A stretch of 64,000 nucleotides of DNA from Schizochytrium sp. TIO01 (Eukaryota > Sar > Bigyra > Thraustochytrida > Thraustochytriidae), in NCBI GenBank assembly GCA_004764695.1, contig SMSO01000031.1:6195261-6259260 (forward strand). Direction: 5' to 3'. This document shows, piece by piece, positions 7,101-46,339 of the stretch (the stretch's first letter is position 1; each line of letters starts with the position of its first letter). The notes under the pieces were generated by a model. The model saw only the letters and a list, made by a program, of their open reading frames with translations. It was not told the DNA's origin and did not search any database. The translations under genes were made by a program, and so were the position numbers.

Positions 7101-7921
7101 GGCGCGACAAATGGCGCCGCGGGCGCGAGCTTGGACCGAGGTTGAGGCCGCCGACTCAAGCCGGTCGCACGGTGGACCTTTATGGATGAAATGGAACCAA
7201 AGATTGATGTTATCTTGGATTGGAGATTTGTGAAGATGGAAAATGATCTTTGCAAGTGGCAATTTTTCTAATCTTTTATAAATTTATCTCATATGAAATC
7301 AAAATTGATTATTTAATTTCGATGATAATCGCCAAATGGGCGCAGTTTGAACCTTCATGATAAAATGCCATAATGCAATTGAGGGCGGTGAATATTTGGT
7401 CCTGGTCTCTCAAGTTTCAATATTTACATTTATATTCTCACTCTTGTGATTTAGAGATGAGATGATATTCATGTTCAAGAAGTTAGCCACAACGCCACAT
7501 GCATTTTTGTTCTTCTTCGATTGCACTTGCCCCTCACGACCACAAACTCTTTTGACAGAAACTATTTGAAGCTCCTGCTGCCCTATTCCAAAGAGCATAA
7601 AGACTGTTGGACCAAATAGGATGCCGTTTTATCAACCACTAGTTTGTGGACGTCGTGCAAGCAAGCAACCAAAATGATCGAAAAAAATAAAACAACTCAA
7701 AATAAACGTTGACTTGCTGATCAGAAAATGGGTTGCGCAAATGTGGGTTTCAATTAGCGCAACACAACAAACAAAACATCAACCAACTCCGCCAGAGCAC
7801 TGCCAGAAATAGAAGAAGGGGGAGGAGAAGGAGGAGAAGTGTTTTGTTGTTTGAGCGTGTGGTGGACCGCGTGTTTGTTATTACGGATCAGGAAAGCACA
7901 GATCAAGGGGTAGACGAGAAG
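7101..7921. promoter_or_regulatory. Divergent promoter region between VPS16 and the methyltransferase-Pkr1 gene
   Basis: Both flanking genes start outward from this 821-bp interval, so it must hold both promoters and 5' UTRs. It is A/T-rich in the middle. A purine tract (gaaggg, ggaggagaag units) at about 7811-7840 lies in the probable 5' UTR of the rightward gene. No convincing TATA box was seen. Confidence 0.6.
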
Positions 7922-8842
7922 ATGTCGCAGGAAGCGGAAGGCTTCATCGCTGATGCGCCCAAGCTGGCGCCCTTCAACCCCAGCAGCGCCGATGTAATCC
8001 GACAGGCTTGCGACCTTTTGGCTAAGACGGGCGGCATTGGTAAGGAAGATGTTGTCTTTGAGCTTGGTTGTGGAGATGCCAGACTTCTGTGCGCCCTGGC
8101 ACAGAAGTTTGGGTGTCGAGGCGTCGGCGTTGAGTACGACGCTCGATTTGTGCAGCGAGCGCAGCAGGAAATCGAGCATTACAAAGTAAGTCATCTCGTA
8201 GAGGTGCGCCATGCTGACGTCACCAAGATCAAGGACATTGACCAAGCTACAGTGGTCTTCATGTACTTGAATGTTCAGGACGACAGAGATCTTCAGAAAC
8301 TCGTGGGGGACGCGTATAGTAACGGCGCACGGATTCTCTCTAGCATGTTCTCGTTGAAGTATTTAGGAGACTTCAATGATGCAGTTGTCTGTGACGGTAT
8401 CACGCGGCTCTACTATTACCGTAAGCCGGTTGATGCGGAGGATGAAGATGCGGATTTGGCGTCTCCAGAGGCGTCTGGAAACGGCCAGGATGCTTTGCAA
8501 AACGTGCAGGGTGGAGATGAAGGCGAAAAGTCAGAGCTGCTCAAAAAGCTCGAATGGTTCTTTGACCCATTGCGAAACCCTTATATTATTAAGGTATTCA
8601 ACGGTGCTATGATCTCGTTGTTCTTACTGTTAATCTTCCTCGTGTATAATGGTCTCGGTAACATTCACATTTATAACATTGTGTTACTTTCAATGTGTCT
8701 TTTTTGTGCAGTGAACTGGTTTATTCGTGAGTATCGTGCTGCTGTGGAAAAGGAGACCCAGGAAAAGGAAGAAGCCAAGAATGGCGAGCAGCTGTCTGGG
8801 TTATCAGCAGATAAGCCTGCCGAAGCGAAGAAAGCGGATTGA
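7922..8842 (+). CDS. Class I SAM methyltransferase fused to a Pkr1-like ER membrane domain
   Basis: The product is 306 aa from the ATG at 7922; the upstream in-frame extension has no ATG and is a low-complexity arginine stretch. Residues 44-165 form a Rossmann methyltransferase: motif I ELGCGDARLL at 47-56, acidic loop GVEYD at 69-73, and motif II ATVVFMYL at 109-116. The fold resembles small lysine methyltransferases of the FAM173/ATPSCKMT kind. An acidic linker (172-205) leads to residues 209-272, which match the ER protein Pkr1, a V-ATPase assembly factor in fungi: FFDPLRNP, a first membrane span at about 226-243, GNIH, a second span at about 250-267, and NWFIREY. The tail is lysine/glutamate-rich. 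Pkr1 normally stands alone, so this is a domain fusion. An ER-anchored methyltransferase is inferred; its substrate is unknown. Confidence 0.8.
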   Translation: MSQEAEGFIADAPKLAPFNPSSADVIRQACDLLAKTGGIGKEDVVFELGCGDARLLCALAQKFGCRGVGVEYDARFVQRAQQEIEHYKVSHLVEVRHADVTKIKDIDQATVVFMYLNVQDDRDLQKLVGDAYSNGARILSSMFSLKYLGDFNDAVVCDGITRLYYYRKPVDAEDEDADLASPEASGNGQDALQNVQGGDEGEKSELLKKLEWFFDPLRNPYIIKVFNGAMISLFLLLIFLVYNGLGNIHIYNIVLLSMCLFCAVNWFIREYRAAVEKETQEKEEAKNGEQLSGLSADKPAEAKKAD

Positions 8843-19510: not shown

Positions 19511-22500
19511 CTACTGTAGGCCAAAGCCTTCGGCGTTATTAATTGCGACTAGCAGCTTTGAGCGTACTTTATCAAGAGAAGCGTATTCGGGCAACAGAAG
19601 GATGTTAAAACAGGTTGCTGCAGTGGGGAGTTGATCGGTGTCTGGCCCAGCGCGTTGAATCTTAAGCTGAAAGATGCCTACCTGCAGCTTTGGTGCGCCT
19701 GTGCAAAAACGAAGAAATTCGCGCTGCTGCGAATGGTTCATTTCCCCAAGTACTACCCAAAGCCACTGTACAACAGGTGATCTACTTGTGTAGCCCTCAT
19801 AAGTGGTATTATCACGGATTCGGTCAAGCTCAAATTCATCCGATCCTGTGAGAGCGAGCTCAAGTTCATCTGGACGAGCGAAGAGGTTGAAGGAAGTGAG
19901 ATCTACAGGAATCAGCATATGGAAGCCACGCAAGAGAGGTTCTGATGCAGCTTTAATAGAGTCGCCCAAGAGGTAACGCACATAGCAAGAAACGTACTCA
20001 TGAACATTATCATGGTTGACCCATTTTTTATCACCTCCAGGCACGAGTGGTTCCGGCTTACCACTCATCGTCCGGTGTTCAGGAGCCTCAAAGGTTTCAA
20101 CAAAAACATCTTCAAAGTCAGGACCATCGTATTCAAGCATCTGCTGAAGGCCGTTGGCTAAAACTGGATTGAGTTCAGCTAGATCTCTTAAATCTGGTTT
20201 GCTATGCCATTGACCAAGCAAAAGGCGGTAGAATGCTGGACAAAAGTTCATGTCAATGATGGTATTGTTGTACACTGCAAGACCAAGCAACTGACCTACC
20301 ATGAAGAATGAATCCGGGTCTCTAACAGCAGTAGATAATGGGCCTGTATTGAACCAAAACTCGCCCGTATCCAATTCAGGCCGGAACATACCATAATCTT
20401 CGCTGAAAAGCTCTGCAGACAAGAGCTGGAAAAAATTCCTTTTTCACACCACCTATGTCAACACCTTCTTCGTTCTTGAAGCGGATCATCAAAGGGCGCT
20501 TCAGATCACGAGCAGAAGCTTTGCCAAGGGCTCGCATAGTGTCCTGAAGCAAGTTTGCACGGGAAATCTCCAATATAAATGGGGGAATGCGCCCGTCCAT
20601 GGCAAAAAGAAATGGCATATCGCCTTCACCCACATAAGGACGAACCTGCATCTCTTGATCTTCTATCTTTAAGAGAGTAGTTTTTGTGTCAGGAGATAAC
20701 AAGAAGCTATACTGAAAAATAGTCCACATTTGACCAGTAGCACGACGCTTGATACGATTCTCACGCCATTGGAAAAAGTAAGCACGAAGGAACTCTTCTG
20801 TGTAGGAAAGCAGTGCACGTGTATAGAAAAGCTCATTGGAGATTGGATCTTGCACAATGGTAGGAGAAGCAACAATTGCTTTCTTGGAAAGCGTATTTGT
20901 TCCTCGCATTTGCCGGCGTCGCTTAGCATCTTCCTCCTTGCGTGTGTTATTCATGAGGTAAATGCGTCGAGCAATCAAGCATAGTTGTTTGAGGTTTGGT
21001 GCGGCGACCTTGCGACGGCTCAGGTAGACACTGATGGAATCCACAATACGTGGCACAACATACTGTGCAAGAGCATCCCCTGGGACCTCAAGGAAAATCC
21101 AGGTGTGAAGAAACTTTTGCAGAGAGTTTTGTGGTAGTTTTTCCGTTCCAATTACAAGTCGTTCATGCTCGAACTGTGTAAGTAGAGCAGTTGGTGAAAT
21201 AAACAAGAGCAAGTAAGGGCGAACTTGGTCAGGCTCCATAGCTATAGAAGCCCCTTTAACAAGGGCTCCTGTGATAGGCCGCATAATACTTTGCAAAAGC
21301 CGGCGGGCCGCATCGATATCGCCTATACTATTTTCCTTATTAACAATTGCCTTGGTTACAGCGAGCATTGAGCGAAGCACACCCTCCACGTCAAGACCTG
21401 AACCTAACGCTTTATCTGCACGAGCAATCGCGCGTGAGGGTTTTAAAGACCAAGATAGTTTGGATGCGTGCGCTGTTGGAGAGTATGCCGGGCGGCAAAG
21501 GCTAGCAGAGGCCATGTAAGGGTCTTTAAATATGGTTCTCATGAGTATGAGCGTATCTGTAATATCTCCTGTTTCTAGAGCATGCGAGGCTATATTGTAG
21601 AGCTGCCCAGCAGTCACCCAAGCCGATTCATAGATTCTGTTGTTCAACGCAAGGCGCACTTCGCGTTCAATGACGGCAATATCTGAAGGTGCTGCTAGTG
21701 CGACAACCTGGTCCTCAATTGCAATCAGCGCATAGGCTGATTGCGATAAATCTGAGAGAGTGATGAGGTTTGGTTCAGGTTCATTAGCGATCCAATTGAA
21801 GATCTCACCGTTGGTGGCCAGAAAGGAGTTCATTCCGTGAGCTCCAGCACAGACATGGTTGAGTTCAATTCCAGATTTTTCAAAGAAAGAAGCTATATCT
21901 CCAGAGGCTGGACGACCCTCACCGTGCCACATTACAGCGCTTGGGCGGCCCAGATAGATTGTATGAGCATCTCCACATGCAACAGCATCAACAGCAAAAG
22001 GCACAGGAAGGCGAACTGGTTCTGGACATGATTCAACATTATCAAAACCAAGCTGGCCATCGTAATTTGCCCCGCAACCGTATACCCTGCCCGAGGCTGA
22101 GATTGCAACCCAGTGATGAGCACCGGCTGCAAGAGTCTGCATAGGAATGAAACGGATGGATGTTCCAGCATGTCTAAGCTTGGTCATGCTCTTTTTGTGA
22201 GATATGAAGACTCGTCCAGAAATGCCAAGTGCTACAAGAATCTCAAAGGTGCTGACAATCTGTACAATAGGTTCGCCGCCGGGTACTGAGACCTGCTTGG
22301 CAGCGGTATCTGCACCACAGATCACCGAAACGCAACCATTGGCAGCCAGAAGGCCTACATGTTCCGCGCCGCAAGCAACCTGAACAATATCAGCATTAAT
22401 TTGCAGGAACTCGTTTCCTCCAGTGCCCCAAAACGCACGACCGGATTGTGTTACGCATGCTAGATGTTCTCCGCGGCTGCTTACAGACACAATAGGTTCA

Positions 22501-23072
22501 TTAACTCTGGATATAAGCTCATTCCATGGTTCCGCATGCGTTAGTTTGGCAGCCCCTACCTTCCACAAAAATGCATTTCCGTGCCCTTCACCAGCTCGCA
22601 GCGGAGAGGGACCCAGACGAGCCCATTGCTGTGGTCTTGGTTGCGAGCTTCTTCGGAGCGAGTTCCGCAGCTGCGATCCTTTCGCTACGATGGCTGAAGT
22701 AGCTTTCCCAAGGCTCGTACGTACACCCCTGGCAAGTGAAGATCGTCTGCTATTTCTAGTTGACCCCGGCTCATTGCTTTGGACATCCCTCAAATTACTG
22801 TCTCCATCATCTTCGCCGTCCTCGTCGTCCTCAAGGTCAAGCTCTGCCACAGCTTGGAGGTCCTCATCCTCATCGTAGTCATCCTCTGGAAGGCGTTCTC
22901 GTCGCAGTTGCTCTGCAGCGGCTGCGTCGTGCAGGCGCGCCTCACTCAAGCGCCTCAGAGCCATCGCCATCGCGCTCCAACCGGGCGGCCCTGCGCAGCG
23001 ACTGTGTGTTCCCCAATCTCGAACTGTCGTCTCACGCGTTGGTCGCTTGATCCATCGTAACTCCGCACACAT
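19511..23072 (-). CDS. RCC1-repeat HECT E3 ubiquitin ligase (HERC-like), frame broken once
   Basis: HECT ligases pass ubiquitin from an E2 through a catalytic cysteine to substrate. The N-terminal 110 residues are acidic. Residues of about 170-440 form an RCC1-type propeller (VACGAEHVGLLAANG, LAAGAHHWVAISASGRVYGCGANYDGQLG). The HECT domain begins near FILEISRANLLQD and ends with LPTAATCFN, LLLPEY and NNAEGFGLQ; the cysteine in TCFN is the expected catalytic residue. The first frame ends at 20376 and the rest lies in the +1 frame (stop at 19511). Dropping one base from the A6 run at 20430-20435 (T6 on the coding strand) joins them as KKEFFQLLSAELFSEDYGMF, the usual HECT pattern. Total is about 1186 aa. 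The ATG at 23072 is the outermost; ATGs at 22970 and 22964 are alternatives. Confidence 0.92.
20430..20435 (-). other. Apparent +1 frameshift site (T6 on coding strand) in the HECT gene
   Basis: Six T on the coding strand; skipping one restores the conserved HECT sequence without any residue gap. Confidence 0.85.
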
Positions 23073-25436: not shown

Positions 25437-28400
25437 ATGTCGATGCTTGACTCCTCGGAAGACGCCATGGCGCGTCTGCAGACGAATGAGCGCATCGTTA
25501 AATTCCTTGGCAGTGATGACAAGCGCCGCATTTCCATGTTCTCTGGCACACGTGTAGGTTCGTCTAGATTTAGCAGTGGTCGTGCTGCTGAAGGTGTGTT
25601 GCGTGTGGACCCCGAAGGCTTGGTGCTTGTTCGTTTCGCATCGAAGCGATTCTCTTCGTTTCGCTCCCGCCGTCAATCAGCCAAACCCGAGGTTCTTTGT
25701 AAAATCGACGAGCTTGTTGACGCTCGCTTGAGTCCTGATGCTCAAGAGAAGCGCGAAGGCAAGTGGCAGCTCAGTGCCGAAAGTGCCTCTGACGGCCGTG
25801 TGACGGTCTTCAACTTTGAGAGCCCCAACATCTTCGAGGCCGTAGGTTGGATGCAAAGTATTCGCAGCCTCCGCGGTCTTCGGGAGAGGCCTGTAGTTGC
25901 CATCATCGGCGAAACCGGCGCTGGAAAGTCTCTACTTGCCTCTAAGCTTGCGGGCCTGGAACATGATAACTCAATCTTTCGTGTGGACGATACCCCCAAA
26001 AGCGTGACTGAGACTACTGACATGTACCTCACGCGTTGGCTTGGCAACGAGAGCGAGGAGGAGATTGTGATTGTTGATACTCCCGGTCTCTTGGATAGCG
26101 AGGGACGCGATGCAGAGCACGCGGCTGATATGCTCATCAAGCTTGCTCAACTCGGTTGGGTCCACACATTTGCGATTGTGTTGAACTCGCAAGACGCTCG
26201 TCTTAAGGGTCCTCTCACACAAATGCTGACGACACTGGAGAAAAACTATGGCAAACAGTTCTGGGCACATGCCTGTATTGTTTTCTCTCACTGGTTTATG
26301 GACACTGCTTCAATTCGCCGCCGTAAGAAATGTGATGAAAATTTCATGTCGGAACGCTGGAATAGCGAGCTGGCCCACCGCTTTCCCTCCATTTCAGAAC
26401 TGCGGACCATTGACAAGACCCTGCCGTGCTTCTTTGTTGACTCGGATGCCGTGGAGGTAGACGAAGTCAAGCTTCTTAACTCTGAACTCTCACGCTTCGC
26501 AGAATCTGCCTCTCAGAACCTTCCCATGGATTGCCGCAAGATCCTTCCTGATCTTGAATCCGCAATGAACGGAGCTGAGGTACCACCTGAAGCCCGCGAG
26601 CTGGCTCAGCACCTCCGTGAATTGGACCTTGCTGATCGTCTTCCGCGTTTAATTGAGAATGGTGTACTCACAATCGAGGCTCTTGGAAACCTCCGTAACC
26701 GAACTCTGCGCAACCTTCTTGGATGGTCAACAGTGGACGTGTCAAAGTTACGGAATGCTAAGGACGCCATCAGTGCTGATTCGCCTGAGCATATCCTCAT
26801 TCGCGACTTCCAGGCCCTTGGACTCCCAGTGGATAAGATTGAGGGCACTGGCCTAACCTCCAAGGAGCTTCTGTGCATGCAGGATAGTGAAGTCATGAAG
26901 CTTGGTGGCTTTAACCTGGAGCATATGGAGCTATATGATACTTACCGCGAGACCGTGCTTCGCCACCAGCGTGTCACTGCCGATGTGCTGTGGGAAGGTG
27001 CCATGGTGTCTCGTAACATCTCTGGTTGGAACTATGGAACCGACTCTCGCCCCCAGGACTTTTTGGGCCCTGGTATGATTATCAATTGGCGAGACTTAAA
27101 TGGCGATGTTCATGGATCTCTCGAAACGCCTCCAGATTTCGATGGTCATCCTCGTACTTACACGGCCCCTGCATACCCTGGTTGGGCTCGGGTATTCTGG
27201 TTTGGTACCGGATATTGCAACAATTACCGAATTGGTGCAGATGATATACATGAGCTTAAGTTCGAAACATCCGAGGATGTTAATGTAGAATCCGCTGATC
27301 CTGAAGACCTTGCTGGTATTCAGTTTAAGCCACTTGAACGGCAGCCGACAAATGTGACTCACCGCGATTTGCGTTGCACATTCCCATTCCCCAAGGGTCA
27401 GCGCTACGGCCACTGGGCCAAATTTGATGTGCGTCCTGAGATTTGCCGTGCTGTTGGTGGCTTTCAACCGGGTCAAAAAGTGCGTTTGCCGAACACCCCT
27501 GTTGAAGCAATCTGCGTGGGCGTCGGTGTCGAGGAGGAAGGAAACATCAAGCTTTGGTTCCGTGTGCTTAGCGATGGTGGTACCCTTGGTGCAGGTCTCT
27601 TCCCTGATCAGGTTCTTGGCTCCCTGGAAGTATTTGGCGAAGACGATGTCGAGCCTGCCAAGCACGACGACTGGGAATGCCACTCCGATGATGGTATTGA
27701 AAATGATGAGCTTGACTATGTGAGCAAGAACGCTGTTGAAGATTTCAAATATGTCACTGGTGTTCGTTTCCGTGAGTATGTATCTTTTGATATTCGTGAT
27801 GATATTGTTGGTCGCTTTGGGTTTAAGATTGATGGAGAGATTCTCCATCATGGAGACGTAATCCGACACAAGTCATCTGGTGCTGTCTTTACAACAGTTG
27901 GTGTAAGTAAACATCAGTCTGAAATACCACGTTTTTGGATTCACAATGAGCGTAATCCAGGCGCAAGCGTTTGGACATTTCTCCATAACGATCTCAATCA
28001 GTTCGAGCGCACTGGCGAAAAGAAGGTTTTGCAACAGATTGAACCCCCCCGCAACATGTTTGAGCCTCCTAGTGAGGAAGCTCGTCGCGCGATGAACTTC
28101 GAATATACTTTCGAATTTCCGCGTGGGACAGGTATGCAAACAACTACTGCTATGTTTGATATTCGCCCAGACATGGTGCAGCAGGTTTGTGGCCAGGTCC
28201 CTGGAGCTGTATTTCTTGGTCCCGATGGGCGTCGTATCACTGTGATTGGTGTTGCTGTCATTCCAGAGACAGGCGAACCAGAAGTTTGGTATCACTTGGA
28301 CGGCTCTCGCGGTGCAGGCCTTCTCCCTGATTTCTCACGTCTGGTTACTGGCCAAATGTTTACTGACACCGGAGAAGTTCGAGATCTTTCGGAGCTGCGG

Positions 28401-28736
28401 GAGGAACTTTCGAACCTGCCGGGTCCCATGAACCCTCTTCAGGCACTCTTGCAAGCTCTTGAGCGTGCTGCTGATAGTGTGAACCAAGAAGATGGTGAAG
28501 ATCATTTAGCCGATTCCGATGACGAAGAGGTTGATGAAGAGGCGTCTGCGCAGGGGTCCCGCTCAAACCGTAATTCGATTCGCAACAGGACCCCAAGTGA
28601 ACCGGGCACAACTCGAACTCGCCCAGTTGGTGACGACGATGATGCATTCATTAGTTATCTCCGTGGCCATGACGACGAGGATGATTCTGACGATGAAAAT
28701 GATGATCACGATCGCCACCGCGCAAGCCACTTGTAG
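25437..28736 (+). CDS. Multidomain AIG1/GIMAP-like GTPase with SAM-like, MIB/HERC2-like and triplicated C-terminal domains
   Basis: An intact 1099-aa frame from the ATG at 25437. Residues 48-146 look like a PH domain (EGVLRVDPEGLVLVRF ending AVGWMQSIRSLRG). Residues 153-360 form a GTPase close to the AIG1/TRAFAC septin-like group: P-loop GETGAGKS at 158-165, threonine-rich switch SVTETTDMY, and G3 DTPGL at 214-218. The G4 position reads IVFSHWFMD rather than N/TKxD, so base specificity is uncertain. Residues 384-445 and 450-510 each resemble SAM domains. Residues 519-610 resemble the MIB/HERC2 domain (GAMVSRNISGWNYG, then ARVFWFGTG, NNYRIG, IHELKF). Residues 646-732, 770-858 and 888-972 are three divergent copies of one unit (FDxRP, VxGVxV, GAGLxPD). 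The tail is acidic with S/R. No single known protein has this architecture to my knowledge. A membrane- or ubiquitin-linked scaffold GTPase is speculation. Confidence 0.82.
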   Translation: MSMLDSSEDAMARLQTNERIVKFLGSDDKRRISMFSGTRVGSSRFSSGRAAEGVLRVDPEGLVLVRFASKRFSSFRSRRQSAKPEVLCKIDELVDARLSPDAQEKREGKWQLSAESASDGRVTVFNFESPNIFEAVGWMQSIRSLRGLRERPVVAIIGETGAGKSLLASKLAGLEHDNSIFRVDDTPKSVTETTDMYLTRWLGNESEEEIVIVDTPGLLDSEGRDAEHAADMLIKLAQLGWVHTFAIVLNSQDARLKGPLTQMLTTLEKNYGKQFWAHACIVFSHWFMDTASIRRRKKCDENFMSERWNSELAHRFPSISELRTIDKTLPCFFVDSDAVEVDEVKLLNSELSRFAESASQNLPMDCRKILPDLESAMNGAEVPPEARELAQHLRELDLADRLPRLIENGVLTIEALGNLRNRTLRNLLGWSTVDVSKLRNAKDAISADSPEHILIRDFQALGLPVDKIEGTGLTSKELLCMQDSEVMKLGGFNLEHMELYDTYRETVLRHQRVTADVLWEGAMVSRNISGWNYGTDSRPQDFLGPGMIINWRDLNGDVHGSLETPPDFDGHPRTYTAPAYPGWARVFWFGTGYCNNYRIGADDIHELKFETSEDVNVESADPEDLAGIQFKPLERQPTNVTHRDLRCTFPFPKGQRYGHWAKFDVRPEICRAVGGFQPGQKVRLPNTPVEAICVGVGVEEEGNIKLWFRVLSDGGTLGAGLFPDQVLGSLEVFGEDDVEPAKHDDWECHSDDGIENDELDYVSKNAVEDFKYVTGVRFREYVSFDIRDDIVGRFGFKIDGEILHHGDVIRHKSSGAVFTTVGVSKHQSEIPRFWIHNERNPGASVWTFLHNDLNQFERTGEKKVLQQIEPPRNMFEPPSEEARRAMNFEYTFEFPRGTGMQTTTAMFDIRPDMVQQVCGQVPGAVFLGPDGRRITVIGVAVIPETGEPEVWYHLDGSRGAGLLPDFSRLVTGQMFTDTGEVRDLSELREELSNLPGPMNPLQALLQALERAADSVNQEDGEDHLADSDDEEVDEEASAQGSRSNRNSIRNRTPSEPGTTRTRPVGDDDDAFISYLRGHDDEDDSDDENDDHDRHRASHL
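27372..28352 (+). repeat. Triplicated ~90-residue unit inside the GTPase gene
   Basis: Protein-level repeats at about 27372-27632, 27744-28010 and 28098-28352. Copies 1 and 3 share FPFP/FEFP.G, FDVRPE/FDIRPD, a GV.V core, a W(F/Y) step, and GAGLFPD/GAGLLPD. Copy 2 is more diverged (FDIRDDI, VGVS, FWIHNERN). Not a family I can name. Confidence 0.7.
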
Positions 28737-41028: not shown

Positions 41029-41916
41029 ACCGGCCTCGTTGGGACCCCAGGAAATAGATGCAGCAGCGGTTTTTAGTGCCAACGATCGGCGTCAATTCCT
41101 CCTCTGGAGACAGTTAGGCTTTTCGTTTTTTCGTTTTTGCGACCTAACACGCAGACCTATGCCCACGGGACTGTGCGAATGCAGCCCGAGTTGCTGAGGT
41201 TTGCGGTACCGCCTTTGCAGGCGTCATCAGGCTGTTTCAACATACTTATTTTTAAAGCTCGAAAACTTTTTTATTTCTAATATTTCTCCATCTCTTTTTC
41301 TTTAAGGAAACCAATTCTCGCTTGACAATTCGTCTTCGATCAGTTTAGCTGTAGATTTTCTCTTCAAGGCTATTGGCGTGCATGATAACTAGATGACCAG
41401 GGTGCAGGGTCACGTATCGTCTGAACATGGTCCCATAATTTGCGGATCTGAGAGAACGTTGGATTTGGTGGAATCTGGCTGTCGAGAATTAGATGTGTGT
41501 GCGATTCTGAGGGCAACCCAGAGAACTTCGGCAGAACGACCTAAACGGATCATTAGGTGTATTGTATAAGTTTACTTATGCCGATAGCCATTACTCAACA
41601 CTGTTATCAAGCTGCTTCGGCATAATTAATTCGGACTACACTTGTCGTATATACCTTTCGGAGAAACTCAGTCTTTGGTGATCATTCATGTGTAGTACAG
41701 ATCTACCACGATAAGAGAGTATGAAGTGCTTTTTACGAAACGAAGAGGCCCTGCAAAGCTCACAACCAATATCGAAGGCATTGGCAAACCCACCCAGGGG
41801 TTTGCTTATGCCAAAGGAAGGAGGATTGCTCCAACGTCGCAAAGGAAGGCGTTGTATTGCCAAGATAGGCAACACGGGCTGCAGGCAAGGGTGCCAAGTT
41901 CGTGGCAAACGGCACC
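41029..41916. promoter_or_regulatory. Divergent intergenic region
   Basis: About 890 bp between two genes pointing away from each other. It should hold both promoters. No distinct motif was recognised. Confidence 0.5.
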
Positions 41917-44900
41917 ATGGAAGAGCTCGCCAATCTTCCGGCCGAGGAGCTGGAAACGCTGCGCTTGAACTTTTTATCACATGGCGACGAAGGACTCAAC
42001 CTGGAGCAGTTTGTCAAAGTAATTTTAAAGACATTGGGCTGCAATGATGAGGACCAAACTGGATCAGATAGCTCATCAGACCATCGTGAGTTAGTTTCTT
42101 CAATGTGCGAAATGTTTGAGGAGATTGACCGCAACGGAAATGGCCGTGTTGAATGGGCTGAGCTCACTTCATTTTGGGTGGCGAAGGGCTTTGTTGCTAC
42201 AAGAAGATTTGTTGAGCCATTGCGTTTCCGCTATCAAGAAGACATGCAATACAAAGATCGATTTAGTCGGGGCTCAAAGATTAACAACCTTATTTTCCTC
42301 AAGTCTATCCAGCGAATTGCAAGCTTTGAAAAGGAAAGTATGAAACTTAAACTCTATGACCCGCGACTTCACCTTTGCAATGAAATAGATGTGGGGCAAA
42401 CAATTCGTAAATATCGTTCATCTTACAGACGAAAGGATGAACTTCGTAACTGTCTTGTTGTACCTCGACGCAATATTCTGGTGGTTCTTTCATCAGACCT
42501 GAGTATCACATTTTGGGACGCCATCAACCTCCGTTTCAATCATTTTGCCTTTTCAAAGTCACCACAAACATGTCTCACATACTCACTAAATACAGGAAGG
42601 GTTTACACCGCTGGAAGCAGTAATAGGATACAAGTTTGGGTTCCTGAAAAGGGTGTCCGCATCGAAAGTATTACAACACGTCATAAGGAAGCCATCACAG
42701 ATATTGTAGCTATTCCAGGGATGCTTATCACATGCTCTTTAGATAAAACCATTCAAATGCACGATATAACGACTGGCAGGTACCGAGGTTCTCTAGTTGG
42801 TCACAAACTAGGTATTAGACATATGGTGTACTCCGAACGCCAAGGCACCTTACTCTCCGCAGGCATGGAGCCTGACGTGCTGGGTTGGGACCTAGGGTCG
42901 CACAAGCAAGTCGTTAAACTTGTCGGCCATCGGTCATCTGTCATTGGGATTCAAATTCTCGCTGCCAATGAACCAGGGAAAGATCGATCGTGCAATCACA
43001 GCAGATGATATGGGTAATTTTCGCATTTGGGATTTCCAGCGTTCACATACTGGACAAGCAGTTTGTTTACAAGTCTTTCAACGAAAAATTCGCAATTTTC
43101 ATGGTAAGTCGAAAGAGAAGAGTTCTCGGGAAGGTCAAAAGCCCTTCTTACCTGGACAACAGCGCTGGACCTTGGACGATTTTCACCCAAATACCTTCTG
43201 TGTGACTGAACCAGGAGCAGACCTTATAGCTGCAACCTCAAAAATGTTCCGCTTTACCTCCTCAGGCCACAAGAATATGAACAACTTGCCCAACGGTGCC
43301 ATTTTTAACTCTGTTTCTCTTTCTTTCATCACCATTACGGGTCACGATGTACAAGTTTGGGATGCACGCACGGGACGTGTAGGAGAAGATATGTTCAATC
43401 TGTCTTCCTCTGAGCTTACAAAGCTTGTGCTGGATGACCGGGAGAGGAAATTTATTGTTGGTCATGCCACTGGCCAAATTCATGTACATAGCTACCTGAA
43501 TGGCGTAAAAATGAAGCAAACAGAAATTGCCCATGAAGCCGATGTAACCGACATTGCCTATGTTGGCAGGGAGAAGTTGCTTATTAGTGTAGCGCGAGAT
43601 CGTAAGCTTTTAATTCATGATGAGTGGCCGGAAGATGAGTCTGCTCCATTTCTTCGAGGAGTCTCTTCTGCGCATCATGCTGACGTAACCTGTGTATCAT
43701 ATTCAGAACCCTTTTCACTGATAGCAACAGGATCAGCAGATGCTACCGTGGCGTTATGGAATTTCGAATTTCTCAAGGTGGAAACCTTGTTGTATGGACA
43801 TTCAGCTGATATTGTTGCGTTGTCCTTTGTTGGAAGCTACCCAATTCTTATCTCTGCCGACTCGAAGGGCGTCGTTTTATTCTCTCTCATCCATCCGTCT
43901 TCTGCAAAAGGACGTTGCCTTTATCGATTCGAAAATTGGAATGATATTGAAAAATTTGGAAGCGGATATTATTACGATGGAAGGGCTGAATCAAAATGCC
44001 AAAGGACTGCTGTCACAGCGCTTTGTGTACACCTACAACAGGCCACTGGGAACTGGATTCTTGTTCTGGGTGACGAGCTAGGAGTGGTGAAGCAGTTCGA
44101 TCTTTCGGTTTTGTTGAAGTCTTATGAGCTAAAAGTTCGAGATCCGCAAACCTACCCGATGCATCGTACCGGATATAATGCACGTCGGCGCCTTCGCAGA
44201 GACTTTGGGTTTGTAATGGATGATCAAGTTCGTATGCAGCAAAATGCAGCACGGAGTGAAGTCGCAGCGGTTTCTTCAGAAAGAGCAAAACTGCCGCTGA
44301 TTTCAGCCATCAAAGCCCACTCGGGAGGAATAAACTCGATTCAGATTGTAGACGCACCTCTTTGCGTGCTCACATCTTCCCAAGATCGCTCAGTTCGTAT
44401 TCACGATCTCGGCACTGGTGATCTTGTCGGCATGCTGAACATGAGTGATGAGGATAAAGAGGCAGTGCTGAAGGGAGAAATGACACGAGCTCCATGGCTC
44501 TTTGATGTTGGCCCATCCATCCAACGTTTGGAGGATCTAAGAACGCAGAAAGCTACAGTTGTTCTTGAGCAACTTCATGCGAACCAACATGCAGAACTCT
44601 CAAAGAATTTGGCTGCGGACACTCATGAAGTCCGTCAAAAGCGTCTGGCTCTTGCCAGAGCACGGATGTCAATTTCTGTTAATCAAGCTCAAGCACTTGA
44701 CGAAGATGCCGCGATAGATGCAGCAACTGCAAACTCCAACGCAGATATTATGGTGATCAATTTTGAGCCTGTGAAAACTCACGAGGAGGAGCTTCGTGAA
44801 TTCAAATTACAACTTTTAGATCAAATAAATACAAAGGATGCATCTGCAGCACCAGGTGTTAGGGCAACACCAAGCTCATATGGAAACTTTGCGCAAGAAA

Positions 44901-46339
44901 ATTTGCGTCATAAATTGAACAATAAACTCCTCAAGCAACTTGATACTGAACCATCTCAGTTTCTGCGACACCAGCTTGGGTTCGGAGCGAATACCCGTCT
45001 TCGGGAGCGAAAACAAAAGAAGCTGGATTCTCTCACACAATTCAAGCGCAAATTTGCAACTAAAGGTCTTCTGGAGGACACTTTGACCATGAGTTCTTGG
45101 CTTGATCCTGGCCTCATCAACAATTCTGAAGGTGAAATGACAAGGAGACCAAACACTGCTCCAGAGCAACTGAGCTCTGAATTACCCATCACTGATCTAT
45201 GGAATAGAACAAATGCATCCTATGTTCAAGCTATTGACAATTTGCTGGCATCTGCTTTGCCGACTCCTCGTCAGCTTGAACCTTTAGAAAACACTGCTGC
45301 TTGTTTTTCTCCGACGAAGAAACGCCCAAGCACAGCAGGGGCTAATGAGTCTCTCGACCGGAACTGGAGGCGCCGGAGTACCGCCGTTCTCGAGCGCTTT
45401 GAGCTTGCCACGACTTCCCAACCTGAAGGTTTTAATTCGAGCACTGAGCAGTCGATGTTAAACTCTGAGAACCCTCAGTCAAAGAGAGGTACAGACACAA
45501 ATGGACCGCAAAGGCTGACACTATCAAGTGCAGGCCGGCGGCGGCGCTCGTTGATTGATCGTCAAAAGGATTATTCAAATGTATCTACAGATGAAAGTAA
45601 GTCGCGCAGACTATCAATAAAATTGAAACCACAGCCTAGGCGCTCGTCCGTTTCTCCTGGAGTTATGGCAGGTGTTCGTTTTGGACCATATCACGAATCG
45701 CACGTTCGTGGCTTCATTGAAATGTTTAAAGAGCTTGATCCTGATCATAGTGGTTTCATAGACATGCAAGAATTCTATACAAACGCTGAACTGCGAGAGT
45801 CTCCCATCGCGGCGTCCCTCGGAAGTATCTTCGAGACAATGGACGAGGATGCGAATGCTACTGTGGATATGGTAGAGTTCTTGGCATGCTTTTTACCAAT
45901 GGCTCAACATTCAGATATACTTGCAATGGTGAAACATTTTGAGAATTTGAAGGCAGGTGAGCAAAAATATGTAAAGCAAGAGCTGCAGACTTCGGATTTA
46001 TCCGAAGATGCACTAAAGGAAATTGACGACCTTTTCGAGTTCTTAGATGTTAACCACGATGGAAGCATTCAGCTAAATGAATTGCAACATATTGCCAAAA
46101 AGAATAAATTCATTGACAAGGCTGATTTGAAACACATTTCGCAACGTTACTCGACAAATGAGAACGGAGAATTGAACAAGAATGACTTTATTGAGCTTTG
46201 TCGAGAGTATTTCTCTTATAATTCAGACAAACTTATCCGTGAGATTCTTTCGTATAATCAACACAATAAAAAGAAGGATGGCCTACGGGCCAGGCTCTCA
46301 ATTCTCGAAAGTACAACATTGGCGCTTGGTGAACAATAA
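41917..46339 (+). CDS. EF-hand and WD40-repeat protein (WDR49/WDR64-like, probably ciliary), frame broken once
   Basis: Starts at the ATG at 41917. An EF-hand (DRNGNGRVEWAE) lies near residue 65, followed by many WD40 repeats (LNTGRVYTAGSSNRIQVW, GMLITCSLDKTIQMHD, FSLIATGSADATVALWNFE, PLCVLTSSQDRSVRIHD). A long disordered linker is followed by three canonical EF-loops (DPDHSGFIDMQE, DEDANATVDMVE, DVNHDGSIQLNE) and a fourth, degenerate one (STNENGELNKND). This order resembles animal WDR49/WDR64-type axonemal proteins. The first frame stops at 43008; the rest is +1. Losing one base from GGGAAA at 42976-42981 joins it as ANEPGKIDRAITADDMGNFRIWD. Total is about 1473 aa. The calcium-binding loops suggest Ca2+ control of flagellar beating; this is inferred. 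Confidence 0.85.

Follow-up and report, generated by a model that had tools for sequence, protein, structure and literature searches.

A thraustochytrid gene that joins an AIG1-like GTPase domain to a SAM domain, a MIB/HERC2-like segment and a triplicated unit

The gene considered here occupies positions 25437-28736 of the forward strand in a 64,000-nucleotide stretch of the Schizochytrium sp. TIO01 genome (the window) and encodes a protein of 1099 residues. The frame runs from ATG to stop with 0 internal stops across 1099 codons, and a frame of this length is expected by chance ~3e-22 times in the window. Codon-usage log-odds, calculated against four neighbouring frames, are positive for this frame only among the six and remain positive in 6/6 protein blocks. 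This is a real and intact coding frame, as an earlier sequence-only reading had proposed, and its codon usage resembles that of its neighbours. That reading also placed several domains in the frame, of which a GTPase, one SAM domain, a MIB/HERC2-like segment and a triplicated unit are retained here, whereas its PH domain is suggestive and its second SAM domain is unsupported. The features and the basis for each are listed below (HMM, hidden Markov model).

25437..28736, + strand: whole gene, an uninterrupted 1099-residue frame; ATG at 25437, stop codon within the end coordinate
25491..25880, + strand: PH-like N-terminal domain, residues ~19-148 (suggestive); PH model from the same genome
25884..26516, + strand: AIG1-like P-loop GTPase domain, residues ~150-360; Pfam AIG1 and the PDB entries of GIMAP4 and GIMAP7
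25908..25931, + strand: G1/P-loop GETGAGKS, residues 158-165; direct reading
26076..26087, + strand: G3 DTPG, residues 214-217; direct reading
26199..26201, + strand: R255, candidate arginine finger; phmmer alignment with the arginine of the GIMAP7 segment 'qlgr'
26286..26303, + strand: non-canonical G4 region SHWFMD, residues 284-289; alignment with four GTPases of the genome
26589..26771, + strand: SAM domain, residues ~385-445; SAM model from the same genome, matching residues 385-427
26787..26966, + strand: supposed second SAM domain, unsupported; same SAM model
26979..27272, + strand: MIB/HERC2-like domain with probable insertion, residues ~515-612; Pfam MIB_HERC2 (below cut-off) and HECTD1 structures
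27342..27632, + strand: repeat unit 1, residues 636-732; leave-one-out HMM
27720..28022, + strand: repeat unit 2, residues 762-862, the most diverged; leave-one-out HMM
28086..28364, + strand: repeat unit 3, residues 884-976; leave-one-out HMM
28365..28733, + strand: acidic tail, residues 977-1099; composition

Profile and structure-library searches support a P-loop GTPase at residues ~150-360, with AIG1/GIMAP as its nearest family. On the whole protein the Pfam AIG1 model (PF04548) scores 38.7 bits, passing its gathering cut-off of 27 (expectation value, E, 9e-10), and heads the 13 Pfam models reported, with MMR_HSR1 second; the isolated segment scores 42.9 bits (E 4.6e-11). A PDB search with this domain returns 27 sequences at E <=0.5, led by GIMAP4 (E 6.3e-6) and GIMAP7 (E 9.7e-4), followed by GBP2 and GIMAP5. 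The definition of the AIG1 domain in a passage of PMC7053062 comprises G1, G3, G4, a G5/IAN motif and a conserved box, and of these both G1 and G3 are present here. The switch-I threonine is also kept (SVT here, SIT in GIMAP4, AVT in GIMAP7), so that G1, G3 and this threonine are shared with AIG1/GIMAP GTPases (GIMAP4 3lxx, GIMAP7 3zjc). The alignment with GIMAP7 extends over ~130 residues and pairs R255 with the arginine of 'qlgr', which we take to be the finger residue itself. GIMAP7 is described as dimerisation-activated and as supplying a catalytic arginine finger (part of PMC8066113), and arginine fingers are named for AIG1/GIMAP and TOC GTPases in a section of PMC11238149.

Several features weigh against this assignment and against the nucleotide-regulated role considered below. 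The G4 position reads SHWFMD rather than the canonical NKxD/TKxD. TKWN occupies this position in four further AIG1-like GTPases encoded by the genome, and GIMAPs carry TRKD-like motifs; the degenerate G4 of the sequence-only reading is borne out. The alignment to the 212-position AIG1 profile ends at position 125, and neither the G5/IAN motif nor the conserved box was located. Among 14 prokaryote genomes used as controls, the AIG1 model also matches in 12 and exceeds its cut-off in 8. Finally, AIG1 leads MMR_HSR1 on the whole protein by ~390-fold (E 9e-10 against 3.5e-7), and by ~260-390 fold across the whole-protein and segment scans. For equivocal AIG1 cases, a survey of corals relied on a gap of 1e-4 in BLAST E-values (part of PMC3723955); our lead is taken from HMM E-values and is not like-for-like with that gap. 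Because of the prokaryote matches, the early end of the alignment and the lead of only a few hundred-fold, we label the domain 'AIG1-like' and not GIMAP. Its further differences from AIG1/GIMAP proteins are the large additional domains and the lack of a transmembrane-like stretch anywhere in the protein, where the best 19-residue Kyte-Doolittle mean is 1.3.

Segments on either side of the GTPase domain were scored against SAM and PH models built from the same genome, each from its 30 best matches (32 were listed for SAM and 82 for PH), with 2000 shuffles of each segment and 267 tiles from the window's long frames for comparison. One SAM domain, at residues ~385-445, is supported: it scores 21.0 bits, a value equalled by 0/2000 shuffles, and 15.9 bits when scored within the whole protein, and its tile is the top scorer for the SAM model among the window tiles. 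The adjoining candidate at 26787..26966 is unsupported (0.2 bits; 466/2000 shuffles equal the score), so that one of the two SAM-like segments proposed earlier stands. The N-terminus is suggestively PH-like, scoring 7.2 bits (2/2000 shuffles equal the score), or 7.5 bits for residues 15-150 (1/2000), and its tile is likewise the top scorer for the PH model. Neither SAM nor PH gave a Pfam match in nine protein segments at E <=10, in searches whose filters lose most weak matches, and the PH-like segment has a single PDB match, a helicase (E 2.3). Elsewhere in the genome, a 2424-residue frame (C33:4367421-4373681) holds seven listed SAM matches and a 1557-residue frame on contig C7 holds three.

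At residues ~515-612 we recognise a MIB/HERC2-like domain that is diverged and probably carries an insertion; this assignment is less firm than those of the GTPase, SAM and repeats. Its C-terminal half, GWARVFWFGTGYCNNYRIGADD, matches both Pfam MIB_HERC2, below the cut-off, and HECTD1 structures, which are the only two PDB matches of this half at E <=10 (0.011 and 0.015). Pfam MIB_HERC2 gives E 0.034 on the whole protein and 0.0015 on the segment, where the score of 18.8 bits compares with a cut-off of 33.5 and the best stretch covers profile positions 35-63 or 35-64 of 66. With a longer segment, glucosaminidase chains outrank HECTD1 in the PDB search. The likeness to Mind bomb, HERC2 and HECTD1 thus lies in the C-terminal half ('GW..V.W..G..N.YR.GA'), where the HECTD1 alignment recovers the pattern W..G..N.YR.GA, whereas the N-terminal half is diverged. 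The earlier MIB/HERC2 assignment holds for that half, but the domain as a whole remains below cut-off, and a genome-wide search for the family does not list this gene. Three other MIB_HERC2 matches did appear in that search. Their frames have 7037, 441 and 4509 residues, the longest being at C5:1251731; two of the matches pass the family cut-off, and the one in the 4509-residue frame at C31:4467412 lies below it. RING, HECT and U-box domains are absent from the Pfam matches of the whole protein and of its segments at E <=10, and on present evidence the protein is therefore not itself an E3 ubiquitin ligase.

The C-terminal third contains a unit of ~90 residues that is present three times between residues 636 and 976. 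Each copy is recovered by an HMM built without it, at 19.1 bits for unit 1, 11.3 for unit 2 and 24.5 for unit 3, and 0/2000 shuffles reach any of these scores. The triplication is well supported, as had been read from the sequence, and the unit is unrecognised in sequence searches of Pfam and the PDB. A structure model of the repeat has weak fold matches that include BAH, Tudor, CAP-Gly and SH3 modules, and hints, with low confidence, at a small β-barrel-like fold of the SH3-like/BAH-like kind. The same low-confidence model resembles BAH domains and a kinetoplastid mitoribosomal protein (the large chain of 7aor, 6hiy, 7ane, 6hiw and 7pub) at the fold level only; a profile search with the repeat lists no kinetoplastid mitoribosomal or BAH chain. 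Judging by size (a passage of PMC8998825), the mitoribosomal chain is probably mS48. The protein ends in a tail with 36 Asp and Glu in 123 residues, 0 Lys and 12 Arg, which is probably disordered.

Searches of the producing genome (64.06 Mb, 37 contigs) with the whole protein, repeat units 1 and 3 and the G domain each found one place, the gene itself. The whole protein has no relative in viral contigs or plasmids, and phages give weak P-loop matches only; the repeat has none among viral or prokaryote contigs. For the G domain there are two partial bacterial matches and none in viral contigs. The same domain order was not found in these collections, which we take to hold few eukaryotes, so that the absence of relatives says little; nor did searches of the literature find it.

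Six AIG1 matches are present in the genome: this gene, four GTPases of another type and one other GTPase frame below the cut-off. The four (L008 and L009 on contig C36, L010 on C24 and L011 on C6) form a small AIG1-like family with frames of 572-856 residues. They share the stretch DTQGLGADTS and have TKWN in place of NKxD, and a Pfam scan (E <=0.01) finds no SAM or MIB domain in them; in these respects they differ from the protein described here, with which they have an AIG1-like G domain in common. L009, L010 and L011 carry a Pfam BTB_2 domain ahead of the GTPase, while L008 is without a BTB_2 match. The union of BTB and an AIG1-like GTPase in one protein looks unusual.

Large multi-domain AIG1 proteins are known from molluscs. 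In the snail Biomphalaria glabrata, 91 complete AIG genes with 19 domain architectures encode proteins of up to 1286 residues, and the partners include death-domain, kinase, ARM-type and Hint modules (part of PMC7053062). The premise that AIG1 GTPases are usually short is thus not always true, and the joining of an AIG1 G domain to other domains has precedent. The likeness extends to an AIG1-type G domain combined with interaction domains in a large protein; SAM, MIB/HERC2 and the triplicated unit are not among the partners named in that part of PMC7053062.

The interpretation that we tentatively favour is that the protein is a soluble scaffold, regulated by nucleotide, in a thraustochytrid-type protist. 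The G1 and G3 motifs suggest that the AIG1-like domain binds a purine nucleotide, and the nucleotide-bound domain would then pair with a second copy; by analogy with GIMAP7, R255 is the candidate finger given across the dimer. The SAM domain would contribute homotypic or heterotypic assembly. If the PH-like N-terminus is real, it may bring the protein to a membrane, and the MIB/HERC2-like domain and the three β-barrel-like repeats may bind partner proteins. In such a scheme the GTPase would switch the assembly of a multi-site binding platform. GTPases of the AIG1 type act in endomembrane traffic and defence-like responses, and any cellular role of this protein could lie in such settings.

The retained residues also bear on the possibility that the G domain no longer switches with nucleotide and serves only as a structural module in a static scaffold. 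The departure of SHWFMD from the TKWN of the four genomic relatives and the failure of the Pfam match to recover the C-terminal motifs of the domain both favour this, but a domain that had lost switching altogether should show erosion of G1 and G3, and these are retained together with the switch-I threonine and R255; we consider such a loss unlikely. A fusion by chance or an annotation artefact, in which adjoining exons or genes are read as a single frame, would fit the single copy in the genome and the viral, phage and plasmid collections that yield no whole-protein relative beyond weak P-loop matches. Coding-like codon usage in 6/6 blocks of a single 1099-codon frame makes that explanation highly improbable.

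Two further possibilities concern function. The E3 ligases Mind bomb, HERC2 and HECTD1 are the typical setting of MIB/HERC2 domains, and the protein could be a ubiquitin-ligation adaptor in which the MIB/HERC2-like domain and the repeats recruit substrates or an E3 under regulation by the GTPase. The match of one half of the domain to structures of HECTD1, itself an E3 ligase, and the other MIB_HERC2 matches in the genome are consistent with this role, which is nonetheless improbable given the half-length, sub-threshold match, the absence of the gene from the family search and the lack of RING, HECT and U-box domains in the Pfam scans. A defence-like GTPase of the GIMAP/dynamin-like sort, assembling on pathogen-containing or damaged membranes, would agree with GIMAPs as the nearest structures, with GBP2, GBP5 and IRGB10 ranking lower and with a match of the PADLOC LeoA model to the G domain (E 4.1e-5). 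These LeoA, GBP and IRG matches do not extend beyond the initial part of the G domain, however, and one copy among housekeeping-type neighbours is unlike the expanded immune families, which makes a defence role decidedly doubtful.

The protein appears to combine mostly known parts in an unusual way, with a repeat domain unrecognised in the libraries searched. Since it is a single gene among housekeeping-like neighbours, the 'undescribed system' of the sequence-only reading overstates the case; the parts worth following are the triplicated domain, which is new, and the change in G4. AIG1/GIMAP GTPases are patchily distributed across eukaryotes, and their origin is termed an open question in parts of PMC3723955 and PMC12845241. 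A large protist protein that unites an AIG1-type G domain, SAM, a MIB/HERC2-like domain and a new repeat would be a tractable case for the output of a GTPase switch; the thraustochytrid Aurantiochytrium limacinum is transformable (part of PMC12227449). It is conceivable, but improbable, that the gene represents a class conserved in thraustochytrids or more widely in stramenopiles. The AIG1-type G domain of such proteins, its base recognition altered, would govern a GTP-switched platform of SAM, MIB/HERC2-like and new triplicated β-barrel domains, and the class would link GIMAP-like GTPases, outside animals and plants, to recognition of the ubiquitin-ligase type. If the domain order is not conserved, the protein would be another domain shuffle of a versatile GTPase.

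The neighbours in the window (Vps16, a phospholipid flippase, RCC1 repeats, NKAP, RGS and a kinase) look like eukaryotic genes of an ordinary housekeeping type. The RCC1-repeat protein is encoded upstream, at window positions 20376-23072 on the minus strand. HERC2 itself combines RCC1 and MIB domains, and the proximity of an RCC1-repeat gene to a MIB/HERC2-like gene is probably a coincidence. Two overlapping frames at 41902-46339 (+) contain WD40 propellers flanked by EF hands and may be pieces of one gene. A single frame at 7733-8842 (+) encodes a methyltransferase domain followed by a domain of the endoplasmic reticulum protein Pkr1. Elsewhere in the genome, a 1647-residue open frame (1087 residues read) contains two FabA domains, and its PDB matches are limited to FabA-type and fatty-acid-synthase dehydratase chains; we presume that it resembles subunit C of the thraustochytrid polyunsaturated fatty acid synthase.
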